Assembly: GCA_012728955.1 (NCBI GenBank)
Contig: JAAYED010000110.1
Coordinates: forward strand, 1 to 56,262
Source: Chloroflexota bacterium
GTDB taxonomy: Bacteria; Chloroflexota; Anaerolineae; UBA1429
Direction: 5' to 3'
Length of the DNA stretch: 56,262 nt
A program made the position numbers and the translations under genes. This document shows positions 1,019 through 9,975 of the stretch, one piece after another. Under the pieces are notes generated by a model. The model saw nothing but the letters and a program-made list of their open reading frames with translations. It did not search any database and was not told the origin of the DNA. Numbering within the stretch: the stretch's first letter is position 1; each line of letters begins with the position of its first letter.

Positions 1019-1681
1019 GTGATCGACGCAGAGAACCGGTGGATGCCACCCTCGCCCCATCGTGAGCGGATCCTGGAGGCGCTGCAGAGCGGCGCAGCGC
1101 ACCTGGTGGATCAGGGACATCGCCTGCCGCCTCTGCTCGTGTTTGAGGATGGCGGCATGATCCCGCTGCCGCGCGTGCGCCTGGCAGCGACGCGCCGGGG
1201 CCCTCAGTTGGTGGCCGCCGAGGAGAGCGACTCTCCCGGCATGACGCGTTTTTACGATGTGTGCGGCAGCATCGACGAGATCCTGGGGCAGGTGCGTGAG
1301 GGCCGTGCGCGCGATCCCGAGGAGATGGCCGGACTGTTGCGCGACATCGGCTACATGGTGGCGCGCCTGGGGCGCCGGGAGGAGCAGTACCGCGCTTTTC
1401 TGCAGGCGGTGCAGGCTGCGGTAAAGGCCGGGTTCGCCCAGCTGCCCCCCGATGCCCAGCAGGCGCCAGAGCGGCTGGCGCGGCTGGGCGCGGCCCTGGG
1501 GCTGGAGGGCGCGCCCCCTGGGGACGTGGCGACCATCACCAGTTGCGCGGAGGAGGTGCGGGCGCTGGCTCAGGCGCTGGAGGACCACCTGGCGCGCATG
1601 CGAGAGGTGGCAGCGGAGGTGCATCGCGCCTACCAGGCGGTGCGCGGTGCCCGCAACTGGGACGAGCAAGCGCCGGCGTAG
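1019..1681 (+). CDS. Hypothetical protein, largely helical
   Basis: GTG start at 1019 preceded by a GGAGGT ribosome-binding site at about 1006. The product is 220 aa, with no signal peptide or membrane segment. Residues 1-75 contain a short beta-rich stretch (LLVFEDGGMIPLPRVRL). The rest is Ala/Arg/Glu-rich and predicted helical, and could form coiled coil near residues 180-210. I do not recognise a family. It stands alone between a divergent methyltransferase and a convergent glycoside hydrolase. GC-rich codon use matches its neighbours, so it is probably a real gene. Confidence 0.65.
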   Translation: MIDAENRWMPPSPHRERILEALQSGAAHLVDQGHRLPPLLVFEDGGMIPLPRVRLAATRRGPQLVAAEESDSPGMTRFYDVCGSIDEILGQVREGRARDPEEMAGLLRDIGYMVARLGRREEQYRAFLQAVQAAVKAGFAQLPPDAQQAPERLARLGAALGLEGAPPGDVATITSCAEEVRALAQALEDHLARMREVAAEVHRAYQAVRGARNWDEQAPA

Positions 1682-1731
1682 CGCACAAGAGGGCGCCACG
1701 CCGGCGGCGGTACGCCGTGGGAGAGACGGGC

Positions 1732-2820
1732 TCAGCGGGCGCCGGTGATCTCGGCCACCCGCTCAAAAAAGGCGCGCTTGAAGGGCGTGTTGATCGTCCA
1801 GTTGACCGGCGGGGTCTGAAAGCCGGTGAGATCCTCCCAGGGGGCGTCGTCGCGCCAGCGGGGGCGCGGGTTATAGTCCTCCCAGGGATCGCCACCCTGT
1901 CCATGCCAACCCTGGTCATAGTAGCCCCAGGAGACCCGGCGAGGCCAGGCGGCCTCGAAATTGGGCAGCGCCGGCGAATCCTCATTGATGATGATCGGCT
2001 TGGGCGCGATGCGGTAAGCCTCCATGCCCTGTACCTGCTCGATGGCGGCGATCAGGCCCTCCGGTCGGAGTCCGTTGCCATGCAGCAGGATATAGTCCAC
2101 GCTGCGCACCAGGCTGGCCGGCGGCATGCCGCGCCCGGTATGCACCTCGGCGCCGCCGCCACTGGTGGAGAACAACAGCCCGGGAAACTCGGCCCGCAGG
2201 GTGTCGAGCATCTCGTGCTGCCTGTCAGCGCGAAAAATGCTGTAGGGCGTGTGGTCCACCACCACATCGATCTCGTTGGCCAGTTCCACCAGGACGTTGC
2301 GGTAGCCGCCCTCGCAGATAAAGGCGCAGGCCTCGCGGGCGGCGCGCCACACGGCGGCCTCGTCCTCCATGCGATTGAGCATCATCCAGTAGAAGAATCC
2401 CACGTTGGCCACCATGCCCAGAGCATCGGCACGCTTGAGCACCCGGTCAAGGCGCGCGGCATAGGCGGGCCTGAGAGCGCCCTGGGGCGTAAAGCCGTTG
2501 TTGTCATAGTTAAAGTACACATCACGCACGTACATGGGGCCGCCGCCCTGCAGGTTGACGCCAAAGGCGCGGATGCCGTGGTCGTACCAGCTGGGGAGCG
2601 CCTCGCAAAAGGCGTCGGTGTTGCGCTCCGGGTCCCAACGACCGGTATCGGGATAGGCCCAGTGGGCCACGGTCACAGGGTTGGCGTCGTCAAAGATGGC
2701 CTGTACCGCGCGCACGTTAAAGAGCATGCCCTCGATCCGATGGCCCTGGTACCAGCGGCCGGGATAGGTGGGCTTGCCATCGATGTACACATCGGCACCG
2801 TGGATCGTCACCGTGGTCAT
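1732..2820 (-). CDS. Glycoside hydrolase-like TIM-barrel protein (clan GH-A type)
   Basis: 362 aa, with no signal peptide, so probably cytoplasmic. VELANEID near residue 180 fits the Asn-Glu acid/base motif of clan GH-A hydrolases, and IIINEDS near residue 275 ends in a Glu placed like the barrel nucleophile. The ATG at 2820 is chosen because AAAGGAG sits 7 nt upstream; a slightly longer frame exists but has no such site. It is divergently transcribed from the sugar-acid dehydratase at 3012, with consensus-like promoters between them, which suggests a shared sugar substrate. The exact GH family cannot be assigned by eye. Confidence 0.7.
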   Translation of the reverse strand: MTTVTIHGADVYIDGKPTYPGRWYQGHRIEGMLFNVRAVQAIFDDANPVTVAHWAYPDTGRWDPERNTDAFCEALPSWYDHGIRAFGVNLQGGGPMYVRDVYFNYDNNGFTPQGALRPAYAARLDRVLKRADALGMVANVGFFYWMMLNRMEDEAAVWRAAREACAFICEGGYRNVLVELANEIDVVVDHTPYSIFRADRQHEMLDTLRAEFPGLLFSTSGGGAEVHTGRGMPPASLVRSVDYILLHGNGLRPEGLIAAIEQVQGMEAYRIAPKPIIINEDSPALPNFEAAWPRRVSWGYYDQGWHGQGGDPWEDYNPRPRWRDDAPWEDLTGFQTPPVNWTINTPFKRAFFERVAEITGAR

Positions 2821-5632: not shown

Positions 5633-6187
5633 CTACTGATCCTGGAGCGTAGCGACCATGGGCAGGTTGCGGTAGTACGAGCCGGCATCCAGCCCATAGC
5701 CCACCACAAACTCGTCGGGCAGCTCCAGGCCCCGATAGGCCAGGGGGACATCCAGCAGGCGGCGATAGGGCCGGTCGAACAGGACCGCCACATTGAGCGA
5801 GGCGGGTTGCCGCGTACGCAGCGTGCGCAGCAGGTAATCCAGCGTCAGGCCGGTGTCGATCACATCCTCGACAAAGAGCACGTGGCGATTGGTGATAGAG
5901 ATGTCGAGGTCCTTGACGATGCGCACGGTGCCCGAGGAGCCGCCGGCGGCATAGGACGAGATGGCCATAAAGTCCACGGCGACGGGGATATCGATGGCCC
6001 GCAACAGGTCGGCCATGAACATCACCACGCCGGTGAGCACCCCCACCAGAACCGGTTGCCTGCCGGCATAGTCCTCGCTGATACGGGCGCCCATCTCCAG
6101 CACGGCCGCCCGTATGGCCTCCTCGCTGAGCACCACGCGTTGCACGTGCTCCTGCAGCTTGCCCGCGGGCGGGTTACTCGTCTGCAT
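5633..6187 (-). CDS. hpt: Hypoxanthine phosphoribosyltransferase
   Basis: 184 aa, the usual size. It salvages hypoxanthine and guanine with PRPP to IMP and GMP in the cytoplasm. The PRPP-binding loop is VLFVEDVIDTGLT near residue 100. VGVLTGVVMFMADLL and the C-terminal FVVGYGLDAGSYYRNLP also match the family. Its start lies inside the end of the upstream nuclease-like gene (14-nt overlap, different frame), so the two are probably translated from one mRNA starting at the promoter near 6650. Confidence 0.93.
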   Translation of the reverse strand: MQTSNPPAGKLQEHVQRVVLSEEAIRAAVLEMGARISEDYAGRQPVLVGVLTGVVMFMADLLRAIDIPVAVDFMAISSYAAGGSSGTVRIVKDLDISITNRHVLFVEDVIDTGLTLDYLLRTLRTRQPASLNVAVLFDRPYRRLLDVPLAYRGLELPDEFVVGYGLDAGSYYRNLPMVATLQDQ

Positions 6188-6599
6188 GGCTCAGCGCCTC
6201 TTTGCCCACCAGCTCCTCCGCATGCTCCTCGATGCCATAACGCCTCAGCATCCACTCAAAATCCTTGCGATTCCACAGCTTGATCTTGACGTCGGGATAC
6301 AGTGCTACCAGCTCGCGCAGCTTGCGGCGCTTGAGGCGGATCAGCCTCTGGCGCAGGGTGGTCAGCTCGATAAAGGTGTCCTGGTCCACCAGGTAAAAGT
6401 CGGGAGAAAAGGCCTCGAGGATGTTACCGTGCTCGTCCCAGGCCAGTGGAAAAGTATAAGGCTCATACTCCCAGCGGATGCCGTAAAAATCGAGGACGGA
6501 GGCAAACTCTTTTTCGCTGGGGTGGGCAAAGGTGATGGCTTTACGGGGGAGGGACGGATTCCGAATGGGGCGACGAACCGATTCTGGCTGGTCTTGCAT
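6174..6599 (-). CDS. PD-(D/E)XK nuclease-like protein, cotranscribed with hpt
   Basis: 141 aa. SEKEFASVLDFYGIRWEYEP is followed by FSPDFYLVDQDTFIELT and then KRRKLRELVALYP. This order (early Glu, PDF, hydrophobic strand with E-x-T, then basic helix) looks like a compact PD-(D/E)XK nuclease core of the TnsA/restriction-endonuclease-like kind, but the usual Lys of E-x-K is replaced by Thr, so activity is uncertain. No membrane segment. It starts at an ATG with a weak GGA site, follows a near-perfect promoter at 6645-6672, and overlaps hpt by 14 nt. The family assignment is inference. Confidence 0.6.
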   Translation of the reverse strand: MQDQPESVRRPIRNPSLPRKAITFAHPSEKEFASVLDFYGIRWEYEPYTFPLAWDEHGNILEAFSPDFYLVDQDTFIELTTLRQRLIRLKRRKLRELVALYPDVKIKLWNRKDFEWMLRRYGIEEHAEELVGKEALSHADE

Positions 6600-6644
6600 T
6601 CCGGTGATGACTCTCCTCCCCGGCCTGACGCCGTTCTGGTGCCC

Positions 6645-6672
6645 ATTATAGAGTCGCCAGGTGTGCTGTCAA
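6645..6672 (-). promoter_or_regulatory. Consensus promoter of the nuclease-like/hpt pair
   Basis: Minus strand TTGACA (6672-6667), 16-nt spacer, TATAAT (6650-6645). It begins just 8 nt after the terminator of the upstream noncoding RNA. Confidence 0.8.
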
Positions 6673-6679
6673 TGGGTAC

Positions 6680-6710
6680 AAAAAAAAGCCGCAGAGAATA
6701 CTCCGCGGCT
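6680..6710 (-). terminator. Rho-independent terminator of the noncoding RNA
   Basis: On the minus strand AGCCGCGGAG (6710-6701) pairs with CTCTGCGGCT (6696-6687) with one G-T pair, followed by a run of T to 6680. Confidence 0.88.
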
Positions 6711-6986
6711 GGTTCAGGCAAGAAACAAGACCCCAAGTGGCCTTCCCGCTCGGTGCGCTACACTCTCGTTGATCAAGGAGTGTCTCCTCCTGCAGCCCCA
6801 GTGCATCACTCTCCGCAACGGGATCCTGATGGACTCCACAGTGCCGGGTGCTGCCAGCGCTTGCCGCCAGCAACCCGCACTGCTTATAGACCGCGACCGG
6901 CCCTCTGGGGACCACCCCAGGAACGCTCCGCCCACTGGGCTGTTCGATTGTGGCGCCCCGACTGTCAGATCTCTCGGGGTCTTGCA
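6680..6986 (-). ncRNA. Free-standing structured noncoding RNA, family unknown
   Basis: The minus strand has its own promoter (TTGACA-17-TAACAT) and ends in a strong terminator, with no convincing reading frame between. The predicted transcript is about 300 nt, of which about 265 precede the terminator. CAAGACCCC at 6985-6977 pairs over its whole length with GGGGTCTTG at 6734-6726, closing the molecule. Inside, a ten-base strand within 6944-6933 pairs with one within 6803-6792 with a single bulge. Local hairpins lie at 6920-6905 (CTGGGG/CCCCAG, loop of 4), 6881-6840 and 6783-6760. RNase P, tmRNA and SRP RNA signature motifs are absent; a divergent 6S RNA is possible. Confidence 0.72.
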
Positions 6987-6991
6987 CAGTG

Positions 6992-7020
6992 ATGTTAGCA
7001 GAGTGGTGGGCGCTTGTCAA
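6992..7020 (-). promoter_or_regulatory. Promoter of the noncoding RNA
   Basis: Perfect TTGACA (7020-7015), exact 17-nt spacer, TAACAT (6997-6992). The expected start of transcription is near 6986, exactly where the closing helix begins. Confidence 0.8.
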
Positions 7021-7061
7021 GGATTTTTGGGACCAAGTGTTGCCCCGCCGGCCCATGCTAC

Positions 7062-7091
7062 GGGCAGCGGCACTGGTCTTGGCCGCTGCCC
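7062..7091. repeat. Perfect inverted repeat downstream of the GH2 gene
   Basis: GGGCAGCGGC (7062-7071) and GCCGCTGCCC (7082-7091) form a 10-bp stem with a 10-nt loop, 36 nt after the GH2 stop. No T run follows on either strand, so it may be a weak or factor-assisted terminator or an mRNA 3'-end stabiliser. Confidence 0.55.
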
Positions 7092-7126
7092 GCATATGCT
7101 GCTTGGCTTGTGGGTGACGCCGGGGT

Positions 7127-9529
7127 CTAGCGGGCCTCCATGGTGAGCGTGGCGCCCGTCAGGCCCTCGCCCCTGGCCTCCAGTGTCACGGTGCCCTGGG
7201 CGCCGGTGCCGCGCAGTACCACCATCAGCCGACCCTGGTACGTGGTACGAGTGGGACCGGTGTAGAGCTCTTCAGAGGTGGGCTCGCCGGAACCCACGGC
7301 GATGATCTGCGCCGGGCCGCTGGCCGCAAAGGACAACCTTTCGGCGGCCCAGGGTACCCGTCGGCAGGCGGCGTCCACCACTTCTACGGTCACATAGGCC
7401 AGGTCGCCATAGCTCGCGCAGAGCCCCTCGCGATCGGCGGTCAGGCGCAGGGCGCCGGGCGCCTCGGTGGTCTCCAGACGGGTGCGCCCCGTCTCCTGTC
7501 CATCGCGATAGGCGATGGCCTCCACATAACCCGGCTCGTAGACCACGTCAAAGCTGGCCAAGAAGCGGTTGGCATCGCCAGCAGGGCGACGCCCCTGCGA
7601 CCGGCCATTGATCACCAGCTCGATCTCGTCGTCAGGCGAGTAGACGTCCACCCGGGTGGTGCGGCCCTCCTCGCCGGGGAAGCTCCAGCTGTCCGAGACG
7701 GGTTCCCAGCCCCAGGGGTTGTAAAAGACGCCCGCCGCCAGGTCGCTGGGCCGCAGCACGCCCACCCAGGGCGCCGTGCGCACGCCCCACATCACATCGC
7801 GGTAGTAGGATTGGGCGCGCTTGAACCCGCAAATGTCGATGTCGCCGCAGTTGGCCAGGTGGTACGGAAAGGGCGTCCCAAAGCCACCGGGCTCGCCCAG
7901 GGTCACCTTGCCGATGCCCGACTCGCCCAGGTAGTCGATGGAGGTCCACACAAAGTCGCCGATCACCTGGGGCAGCGCCTCAGTGGCCTTCCAGGTATCG
8001 TAGGCCACCGAGGGAAAGGTCTCGGTGCCGGCCAGCACCCGCTGAGGAAAGCGCTGGGCGTCAAAGTCATAGCGCGGATACAAATAGTTATAGCCTACCA
8101 TGTCCAGGGCGTCGCAGAACTCTTCCGTGAGGTTACCCCAGCGGTCGGATTCGCAGTCGGTGGGGCGCAGACGGTCAAAGTTGAATGCGCCCTGGGCCGC
8201 CGTCACCGAGCCCAGGCTGGGCTGTCCGTCGGTGAACACCGCCTCGAACAGGAAGGGCAGCGCCGAGGTCACTGGGCGGGTCTCGTCCAGTGAGCGGATC
8301 AGCTCCGCCTGGCGGCGTGCCCAGAGGGGGCCGTCGGAGATGCCGCCACGCTCTGACACCTCGTTGCCGATGGACCACATGATCACCGAGGGATGGTTGC
8401 GGTCGCGCAGCACCATGGAGGCGGTATCCCGCGCCCACCAGTCCTCAAAGTAGAGGTGATAGTCGGCGAGATTCTTGCCCATGCGCCAGCAGTCAAAGGT
8501 CTCGTCGATCACCAGCATGCCCAGCCTGTCGCAGGCTTCGAGCATGGCGGGGGCGGGCGGGTTATGGGCGCAGCGGATGGCATTGTATCCGGCCGCCAGC
8601 ATCAGCTCGACTTTGCGCTCCTCGGCACGGTCGTAGCTGGCGGCGCCCAGCAGGCCGTTGTCGTGGTGCACGCAGCCGCCCTTGAGCTTGAGGGGCACGC
8701 CGTTGAGGCGCAGGCCCTGCTCCGCATCCATGGCCAGGGTCCGGATGCCAAAAGTAGTGCTTTCCTGGTCGATCACGGTGTCATCGGCCAGCACCTGGCT
8801 TTGGAGCGTGTACAGACAGGGATCTTGCAGGCTCCACAGACGGGCGTCGTGCAGGGTCACCGTCTCATCCAGCACCAGCTGCCCCTGGTCGTCCAGCCGC
8901 AACGGGACCGTGGTGGAGGCCACCTGCTCTCCCGAGCAATCGAGGATGGCCGATTGGATGGTTGCGCTGGCCCCAGGCTGGCCCGCCAGGGTGGTAGTGA
9001 TCTTGAGCTTGGCTTCAGAGCCACGTACCGATTCGGTGCGCACAAACACGCCCCACGGGACGATGCGGGTAGCCCCGCCGCGGCGCAGCCACACGTGGCG
9101 ATAGATGCCCGTGCCCGTGTACCAGCGCGAATTGGGCTGGGCGGAGTTGTTCACCCTCACCATGATCCGGTTGGTGGCGCCAAAGGTGATGTGAGGCGTG
9201 ATGTCCACCACAAAGCTGGTATAGCCGTAGGGGTGCAGTGCCACCGTGTCACGGTTGACCATGACGGTAGCGTTCATGTACACACCCTCGAACTCGAGTT
9301 GCAGGCTCTGACCGCGCCATTCTTCGGGCACGTACAGCTCGCGGCGATAGGTGAGCACGCCCGACCAGGCATAGCCGCCGCCACCGCCGGTGGGATATGT
9401 GGCCGAGCGCTCGCGCTCGATAGAGGCGTCGTGTGGCAGGGTGACCGGCGTCCACTGGGCGTCGGGCGGCGGTGTCATGCCCGTGTGGACGGTGTACTCC
9501 CAGCCGTCATTGAGCTTGAGTTTGAGCAT
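7127..9529 (-). CDS. Glycoside hydrolase family 2 protein (beta-galactosidase type)
   Basis: 800 aa, no signal peptide. Domain order: sugar-binding jelly roll (residues 1-160), immunoglobulin-like domain (160-270), TIM barrel (270-570), then C-terminal DUF4982-like and Ig-like domains. RDRNHPSVIMWSIGNE near residue 390 holds the acid/base Glu. AGTETFPSVAYDTW near residue 500 is a candidate nucleophile region, and FVWTSIDYLGE is typical of the GH2 branch with DUF4982. AAGGAG lies 7 nt before the ATG at 9529. It is 47 nt downstream of the SCP-2 gene on the same strand, so probably one operon. Galactosidase is the likeliest activity; glucuronidase or mannosidase cannot be excluded. Confidence 0.9.
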   Translation of the reverse strand: MLKLKLNDGWEYTVHTGMTPPPDAQWTPVTLPHDASIERERSATYPTGGGGGYAWSGVLTYRRELYVPEEWRGQSLQLEFEGVYMNATVMVNRDTVALHPYGYTSFVVDITPHITFGATNRIMVRVNNSAQPNSRWYTGTGIYRHVWLRRGGATRIVPWGVFVRTESVRGSEAKLKITTTLAGQPGASATIQSAILDCSGEQVASTTVPLRLDDQGQLVLDETVTLHDARLWSLQDPCLYTLQSQVLADDTVIDQESTTFGIRTLAMDAEQGLRLNGVPLKLKGGCVHHDNGLLGAASYDRAEERKVELMLAAGYNAIRCAHNPPAPAMLEACDRLGMLVIDETFDCWRMGKNLADYHLYFEDWWARDTASMVLRDRNHPSVIMWSIGNEVSERGGISDGPLWARRQAELIRSLDETRPVTSALPFLFEAVFTDGQPSLGSVTAAQGAFNFDRLRPTDCESDRWGNLTEEFCDALDMVGYNYLYPRYDFDAQRFPQRVLAGTETFPSVAYDTWKATEALPQVIGDFVWTSIDYLGESGIGKVTLGEPGGFGTPFPYHLANCGDIDICGFKRAQSYYRDVMWGVRTAPWVGVLRPSDLAAGVFYNPWGWEPVSDSWSFPGEEGRTTRVDVYSPDDEIELVINGRSQGRRPAGDANRFLASFDVVYEPGYVEAIAYRDGQETGRTRLETTEAPGALRLTADREGLCASYGDLAYVTVEVVDAACRRVPWAAERLSFAASGPAQIIAVGSGEPTSEELYTGPTRTTYQGRLMVVLRGTGAQGTVTLEARGEGLTGATLTMEAR

Positions 9530-9576
9530 AGTGGCTCCTTGAAATGGTCAGAGATTCGGTCCCGTAAAGATCCGCA

Positions 9577-9975
9577 CTAGTCGCGTGACAGGTGCTCCGT
9601 GGCGGCCTTGTAGAGCGGGGTGATATAGTAGATATAGTTGGCGACGCTCTCCGCCATCCATTCGTCGCCCCGCAGGCGCAGAGCCCCCGAAAAGTAGGCC
9701 GATTCGCCGCTGAGCCTGCCCAGAAAGATCCGGTCCAGCGTGTCGCTGGCCAGCGTGATGCCCACCGTGGCGGCGCTGGCGCTGCCTGCGGTACCGGTGA
9801 TCACGCCCTTGCTAAAGGCGATCACGTACTCGGTGCCGGGCAGATCGGTGACATTGATCCCCAGCGAGACGTTGGCGCTGCGGATGCGGGTGGTGAGCGT
9901 TTCGTTCTTGTTGAGCTCTGCTACCACCTGGTCCAGGATGGCGATGAGCTCTTCGCGGTTAGCATACACTGCCAT
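9577..9975 (-). CDS. SCP-2 sterol-transfer-family-like small protein
   Basis: 132 aa, soluble. The pattern of helix (EELIAILDQVVAELN), strands (VSLGINVTDLPGTEYVIAFSKGVITGT) and the segment LDRIFLGRLSGESAYFSGALRLRGDEW matches the SCP-2 fold, a small lipid-binding pocket domain also used as an accessory to metabolic enzymes. GGGAGG precedes the ATG at 9975. It leads a probable operon with the GH2 gene and is divergent from the GH127-type gene. A role in lipid or hydrophobic ligand handling is inference from the fold only. Confidence 0.7.
   Translation of the reverse strand: MAVYANREELIAILDQVVAELNKNETLTTRIRSANVSLGINVTDLPGTEYVIAFSKGVITGTAGSASAATVGITLASDTLDRIFLGRLSGESAYFSGALRLRGDEWMAESVANYIYYITPLYKAATEHLSRD

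Follow-up and report, generated by a model that had tools for sequence, protein, structure and literature searches.

A predicted stand-alone structured RNA and its previously undescribed multi-copy family in Chloroflexota

The window, by which we mean the whole stretch of 56,262 nucleotides of Chloroflexota DNA that was analysed, contains the gene of a predicted structured RNA on its minus strand. Comparison with related genomes makes it a well supported conclusion that this RNA is one member of a multi-copy RNA family, not described before, of one Chloroflexota family. That the family would be a new RNA class is likewise well supported.

The RNA gene and its predicted fold

The features of the locus strongly support a stand-alone, probably non-coding gene with its own promoter and terminator. 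The predicted RNA (6680–6986, minus strand) measures about 305 nt from a start near 6986, inferred from the position of the −10 element, to the end of the terminator U-tract. A sequence-only reading of this DNA had named a TTGACA-17-TAACAT promoter and no strand; we find it on the minus strand (6992–7020), with TTGACA at 7020–7015, a 17-nt spacer and TAACAT at 6997–6992. The −10 element is of the extended type (TGcTAACAT, 7000–6992). The clean intrinsic terminator of the same reading is also present (6680–6710, minus strand), as a GC-rich stem of 10 pairs (6710–6687) followed by a U8 tail. Right after it comes, again as described, a separate consensus promoter for the next operon (6645–6672, minus strand; TTGACA-16-TATAAT, 12 of 12 consensus positions). 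These two are the only promoter-like sites in 1.7 kb, where 0.3 are expected.

Folding of positions 6680–6988 on the minus strand gives an energy of −151.7 kcal/mol (z = −4.88; no shuffle out of 100 does as well), compared with z = −1.22 for the plus strand of the same region. The predicted fold is a multi-branch tree without a large open central bubble. Its predicted start near 6986 coincides exactly with a closing helix, P1, in which GCAAGACCCCGAG-A-GAUC pairs with a partner ending in GGGGUCUUGU. The helix had been read as 9 bp long. It is indeed there, but with 13 continuous pairs, an A-A mismatch and 3–4 more pairs it exceeds that length. The 5′ arm of P1, GCAAGACCCCGAGAGAUC (6968–6985, minus strand), forms 17 pairs with 6742–6725 and holds a nearly invariant GAGAG; the 3′ arm, GGCCACUUGGGGUCUUGU (6725–6742, minus strand), has the family consensus GGUCACUUGRGGYYYUGC. 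The core closed in this way is 263 nt long (6986–6724, minus strand).

The second long-range helix and the several hairpins that had been noticed before are seen in the fold as well. The helix, P3, joins AGCCCAGUG on its 5′ side (6933–6941, minus strand) to CACUGGGGCU on its 3′ side (6794–6803, minus strand) and closes the multi-branch hairpin junction. It is supported by the fold and by two-sided changes at alignment columns 46/199, 52/193, 53/192 and 57/188. The P7 hairpin, GGAG-GAGACA-CUCC (6777–6790, minus strand), is kept in most members (columns 226–239), and 3′ of it lies a conserved segment, UUGAUCAACGA (6766–6776, minus strand; AUAAMAACGA in the family alignment), that is predicted to be single-stranded. 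In the subset of members similar to the window copy, a consensus fold of six sequences (RNAalifold) contains P1, P3, P7 and the hairpins, and 11 pairs show changes in both partners.

Directly after P1 the window copy carries a motif, UCUGACAGUCGG (6957–6970, minus strand), which recurs near the 5′ end of the giant members described below; its counterpart in the 300–460-nt members is CUGACCCGCAAGUCGGG. We rejected by eye a k-turn at the top of P1, because the AAA bulge is not followed by a GA/AG tandem.

The longest open frames have 87 codons (window copy) and 139 codons (one relative, G005b), and such lengths could speak for an mRNA that encodes a small protein. However, the similarity between homologs is the same in all six frames, so that no frame is selected as coding; no frame is shared, and lengths vary freely. 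The frames thus appear to be chance ones, none of them conserved among homologs, which agrees with the earlier statement that there is no good ORF inside. The small-mRNA explanation is poorly supported and its probability next to negligible.

Comparison with known RNAs

The Rfam search that had been suggested along with the sequence-only reading yielded no credible family for the window RNA or its homologs. The whole window has no match in Rfam 15 at gathering thresholds (cmscan), including ROOL, GOLLD, OLE, HEARO, raiA and Chloroflexi-1. At E<=10, positions 6500–7200 give only two sub-threshold, chance-level matches. One is to suhB (21.7 bits against a cut-off of 41) and rests mainly on the terminator hairpin. 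The other is to Chloroflexi-1 (RF01698; 7049–7122, plus strand, 18.7 bits against a cut-off of 80) and comes from a hairpin adjoining the RNA. For 23 homologous loci (17 + 6; cmscan, E<=1 or 2), no family covers the RNAs beyond sub-threshold, chance-like matches. We found no paper that names this RNA in the open-access literature.

RNase P RNA, tmRNA and SRP RNA had been described as absent, and none of their models matches at the locus. The tmRNA model (RF00023) has no match in 6500–7200 at E<=10, and tmRNA is rejected on this ground. Class A RNase P RNA (RF00010) and bacterial small SRP RNA (RF00169) have no match at the RNA locus, and both identities are rejected, as the genome has its own copies elsewhere (G000:C160:16593-16983, 269.1 bits, and G000:C304:2681-2780, 70.8 bits, respectively).

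The sequence-only reading had left the choice between a divergent 6S RNA and a new class, and only the second option holds. The 6S model (RF00013) finds nothing in 6500–7200 at E<=10, while it identifies the genome's own 6S RNA elsewhere (G000:C255:304-465, 72.7 bits) and a 6S RNA in 9 of 9 relatives tested; a divergent 6S is thereby ruled out. Since genuine 6S, RNase P and SRP RNAs are encoded elsewhere in the genome, the window RNA is no divergent version of these. It resembles 6S RNA in standing alone, in its terminal closing helix and in having its own promoter and terminator. In contrast, the hallmark of 6S, a single long and irregular hairpin opened by a large bubble at its centre, is absent from the predicted multi-branch fold of the window RNA, and cores across the new family range from 178 to 932 nt. 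An RNA non-homologous to 6S could nevertheless regulate transcription in a 6S-like manner, as a mimic for RNA polymerase, and the closing helix, the dedicated promoter and the near-invariant base of the molecule would suit such a role. Given the real 6S in the same genome and in every relative tested, and a tree-like fold without the open bubble, we consider such a mimic quite improbable.

In general size and complexity the window RNA is comparable to stand-alone structured RNAs such as the raiA motif, from which it differs in having no Rfam match. In overall character it also resembles ROOL, GOLLD and OLE, large and intricately folded bacterial RNAs whose sequence varies while the structure is kept. 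The new family differs in that neither its small nor its 780–930-nt members have an Rfam match to any of these. Its members are found in bacterial genome contigs only, with none in viral contigs, where the matches consist of the short hairpin or a 16-base motif alone, without the remainder. GOLLD, ROOL and OLE form RNA-only multimers (PMC12286853), and the same paper mentions a raiA monomer structure.

Chloroflexi-1 is listed as a structured RNA candidate for Chloroflexus aggregans (PMC2864571) and comes from the same phylum as the window RNA. Its model, however, is 84 nt long, and its sole match is the chance-level one given above. The source of that match is a strong GC-rich inverted repeat, CGGGCAGCGG...CCGCTGCCCG (window 7059–7096), in the stretch that separates the RNA promoter from the end of the GH2 gene.

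A multi-copy family with constant ends

The RNA had been called an orphan. In the sense of lacking relatives this does not hold, as it has about 31, one of them a 783-nt paralog within the same genome. Blastn finds two full-length relatives, with 62–63% identity and the same neighbours. Covariance models from homologous regions, a check proposed with the sequence-only reading, led to conserved relatives and to a covarying P1, and this conservation independently confirms the RNA. We used a model of three sequences (R1) and one of 14 sequences (R2), neither of which contained the promoter, and a 25-sequence model of the promoter and the P1 5′ arm (R3).

With these models we found about 32 copies in 17 genomes: all 15 genomes of the window's family (f1), one genome of f42 and, more weakly, one of f3. 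Among 396 genomes of the class, R3 matches of at least 36 bits are confined to f1 (15 of 15 genomes, 30 copies) and the one f42 genome. The f3 copy (G016) scores 29.8 bits with R3; it first came to light next to the same 141-aa gene that adjoins the window RNA. In 400 genomes spread across the phylum, matches at E<=1e-5 occur in f1 genomes only. R3 matches under about 28 bits look promoter-only. Two candidate genomes (G062 and G087) were rejected after their loci were read and the RNA was absent, and weak R2 matches in f16, f38 and G066 were left out of the member set. Pattern searches were less discriminating: a first one (CCNGAGGGCCGNTCGNGGTCTA, 2 mismatches, 396 genomes) gave 25 matches with only 3 real, and in a scan of GTDB species genomes the matches were in Chloroflexota MAGs except for two chance ones, which came from MAGs of Geobacter (L109) and Acidimicrobiia (L116).

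Genomes, which are draft assemblies, carry one to four copies, some in tandem. For example, the tandem members at L106:1344-1956 (plus strand, genome G014) each have their own promoter, and pairs of nearby members also occur in G004:C136 and G002:C137. Copies within one genome are strongly diverged. Near the copy in G012 we also noticed a cobalamin riboswitch (RF00174, 68.5 bits; L139:2439-2590, plus strand), which is separate from the RNA.

The genes around the copies bear on whether the RNA acts in cis. Beside the window RNA, and outside it, lie a 141-aa gene without a Pfam family (6174–6599, minus strand) and an hprt-like phosphoribosyltransferase gene (5633–6187, minus strand; PF00156, E 1.3e-24). 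A cis-acting leader of these two genes, either an attenuator or a riboswitch, would fit the terminator between RNA and gene and the presence of the 141-aa gene as shared neighbour in four genomes (G000, G001, G004 and G006). Yet the operon has its own perfect promoter past the terminator, and most copies have other neighbours, some in the opposite orientation, which makes the leader explanation poorly supported and very improbable. Indeed, the nearest genes are diverse (beta-galactosidase, MFS, nitroreductase, methyltransferase, HAD hydrolase, epimerase and others), neighbours face both ways, and the 141-aa/hprt context is common to some members only. We count these widely differing neighbours, together with one to four copies per genome, as support for action in trans. 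The 141-aa protein itself is present in 22 of 41 related genomes.

What stays constant among the copies is the way they begin and end. An exact TTGACA is found in 25 of the 25 members with an aligned start, all of which have P1, and nearly all carry the extended −10 at fixed spacing. The window copy and the aligned members thus share one signature, a TTGACA-17-TGnTAnnnT promoter followed directly by P1. Since R1 and R2 lacked the promoter, TTGACA counts as independent evidence in the members to which they led; in copies found with R3, that role falls to the 3′ arm and the terminator. Terminators are seen downstream of many members.

P1 is paired in 98.0% of 510 cells (30 distinct sequences, with the arms joined by hand through an N linker), and sliding the partner as a control lowers pairing to 26–52%. 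Two-sided changes affect 7 of the 17 pairs and amount to 45 cells compared to 11.8 in shuffles; none of 500 shuffles reaches 45. All 24 members tested fold below their shuffles (z from −3.6 to −11.0) with P1 recovered in each, and most of them show further long-range helices and a multi-branch hairpin junction.

Within P1, the lower part covaries freely, and the part made of GAGAG / GUCACUUG around the A·A mismatch (GAGAG / CACUUG) is nearly invariant in sequence. Near-invariant positions on both strands beside freely covarying ones suggest recognition, beyond mere pairing. Nonetheless, part of this conservation could come from relatedness or from sequence demands of the start site. G-U pairs are kept too: pair 11 is G-U in 27 of 30 sequences, and pair 17 is U-G in 25 of 30.

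These details also bear on a mobile DNA element with terminal inverted repeats that resemble P1 by coincidence. Such an element would account for the inverted arms at the two ends, for genomes with several copies and for the changes in size. But the kept G-U pairs and the A-A mismatch would be mismatches in DNA repeats, yet fit an RNA helix; in addition, copies in the same genome are strongly diverged, and the promoter and terminator are kept beyond the arms. A mobile element is therefore poorly supported and scarcely credible.

A second constant part is P7. GGAGRAGAMACUCC followed by AUAAMAACGA occurs in the window copy and most members, and the hairpin is missing or altered in several (e.g. 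G011, G003, G005 and G016).

A variable interior and a possible scaffold role

Between the constant ends, closed cores range from 178 to 932 nt. The smallest (178 nt) is in G016, most measure 216–283 nt, and those of G003, G005, G009 and G011 measure 304–456 nt. Three cores are giant, with 783 nt (G000b), 811 nt (G001b) and 932 nt (G004c). The first of these is the second member in the window's genome (L195:~1507-2290, plus strand; G000:C148:~9006-9789) and has its own promoter and terminator. The other two (L196 and L197, respectively) are its orthologs, with the same kind of gene, without a Pfam match, downstream. In the 456-nt member of G009 (L097:1272-1727, minus strand), the P7 hairpin and the A-rich strand occur twice, an apparent internal duplication. 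As the interior is too variable for a single alignment, helices other than P1, P3 and P7 come mostly from single-sequence folds.

Based on these features, we favour, with moderate confidence, a structural RNA that stands alone, acts in trans and represents a new family, for which we use the name "P1-closed ornate RNA of Anaerolineae"; it would probably serve as a scaffold with a common docking base. Sequence comparison shows the gene organisation, the structure and the conservation, and from these we infer the action in trans and the scaffold or docking role. The strong-looking dedicated promoter is placed to start the RNA at the first base pairs of P1. The chain is then predicted to fold into P1, the long-range helices P2 and P3 and the multi-branch hairpins, followed in most members by P7 and the A-rich single strand, and to end at the intrinsic terminator. 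P1 would be a stable base that protects both ends of the molecule, and its near-invariant part (GAGAG/GUCACUUG with the A-A mismatch) may dock a partner that all copies share, which would be a protein or a second RNA copy. P7 and the A-rich strand, where present, may dock that partner too. The interior, variable in size, would be the scaffold; it differs from paralog to paralog, and may provide each of them with a job or a particle size of its own. Constant ends, cores of 178–932 nt and the duplicated P7 module in G009 support this scaffold view.

An alternative is a base-pairing regulatory RNA, in which the hairpin loops and the A-rich strand would pair with mRNAs in trans and P1 would only protect the ends. 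The stand-alone gene with a terminator, the several paralogs per genome and the conserved AUAAMAACGA, predicted to be single-stranded, together with the RAGAMA loop, are all compatible with this. However, these RNAs are far larger and more branched than is usual for such regulators, and it is within helix P1, not in a seed, that their least variable bases are found. We regard a base-pairing regulator as unlikely.

Going further than the scaffold reading, the family may be a class of giant ornate RNAs, with paralog sets of about 180–930 nt that share one docking base and would assemble into RNA-only or RNA-protein particles. This we put forward tentatively, as a possibility somewhat short of probable. 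The newness that we describe applies to the RNA family, and would be less if its function is that of a known kind of RNA.

Few bacterial RNAs are very large and intricately folded, and recent work on several of them has revealed unexpected activities, such as the formation of RNA-only cages. The family described here is near-universal in one lineage, and its one to four diverged copies per genome, on a fixed base, would form a natural series for study across their range of core sizes. Its presence suggests that poorly cultured phyla still harbour conserved RNA classes missing from our libraries.
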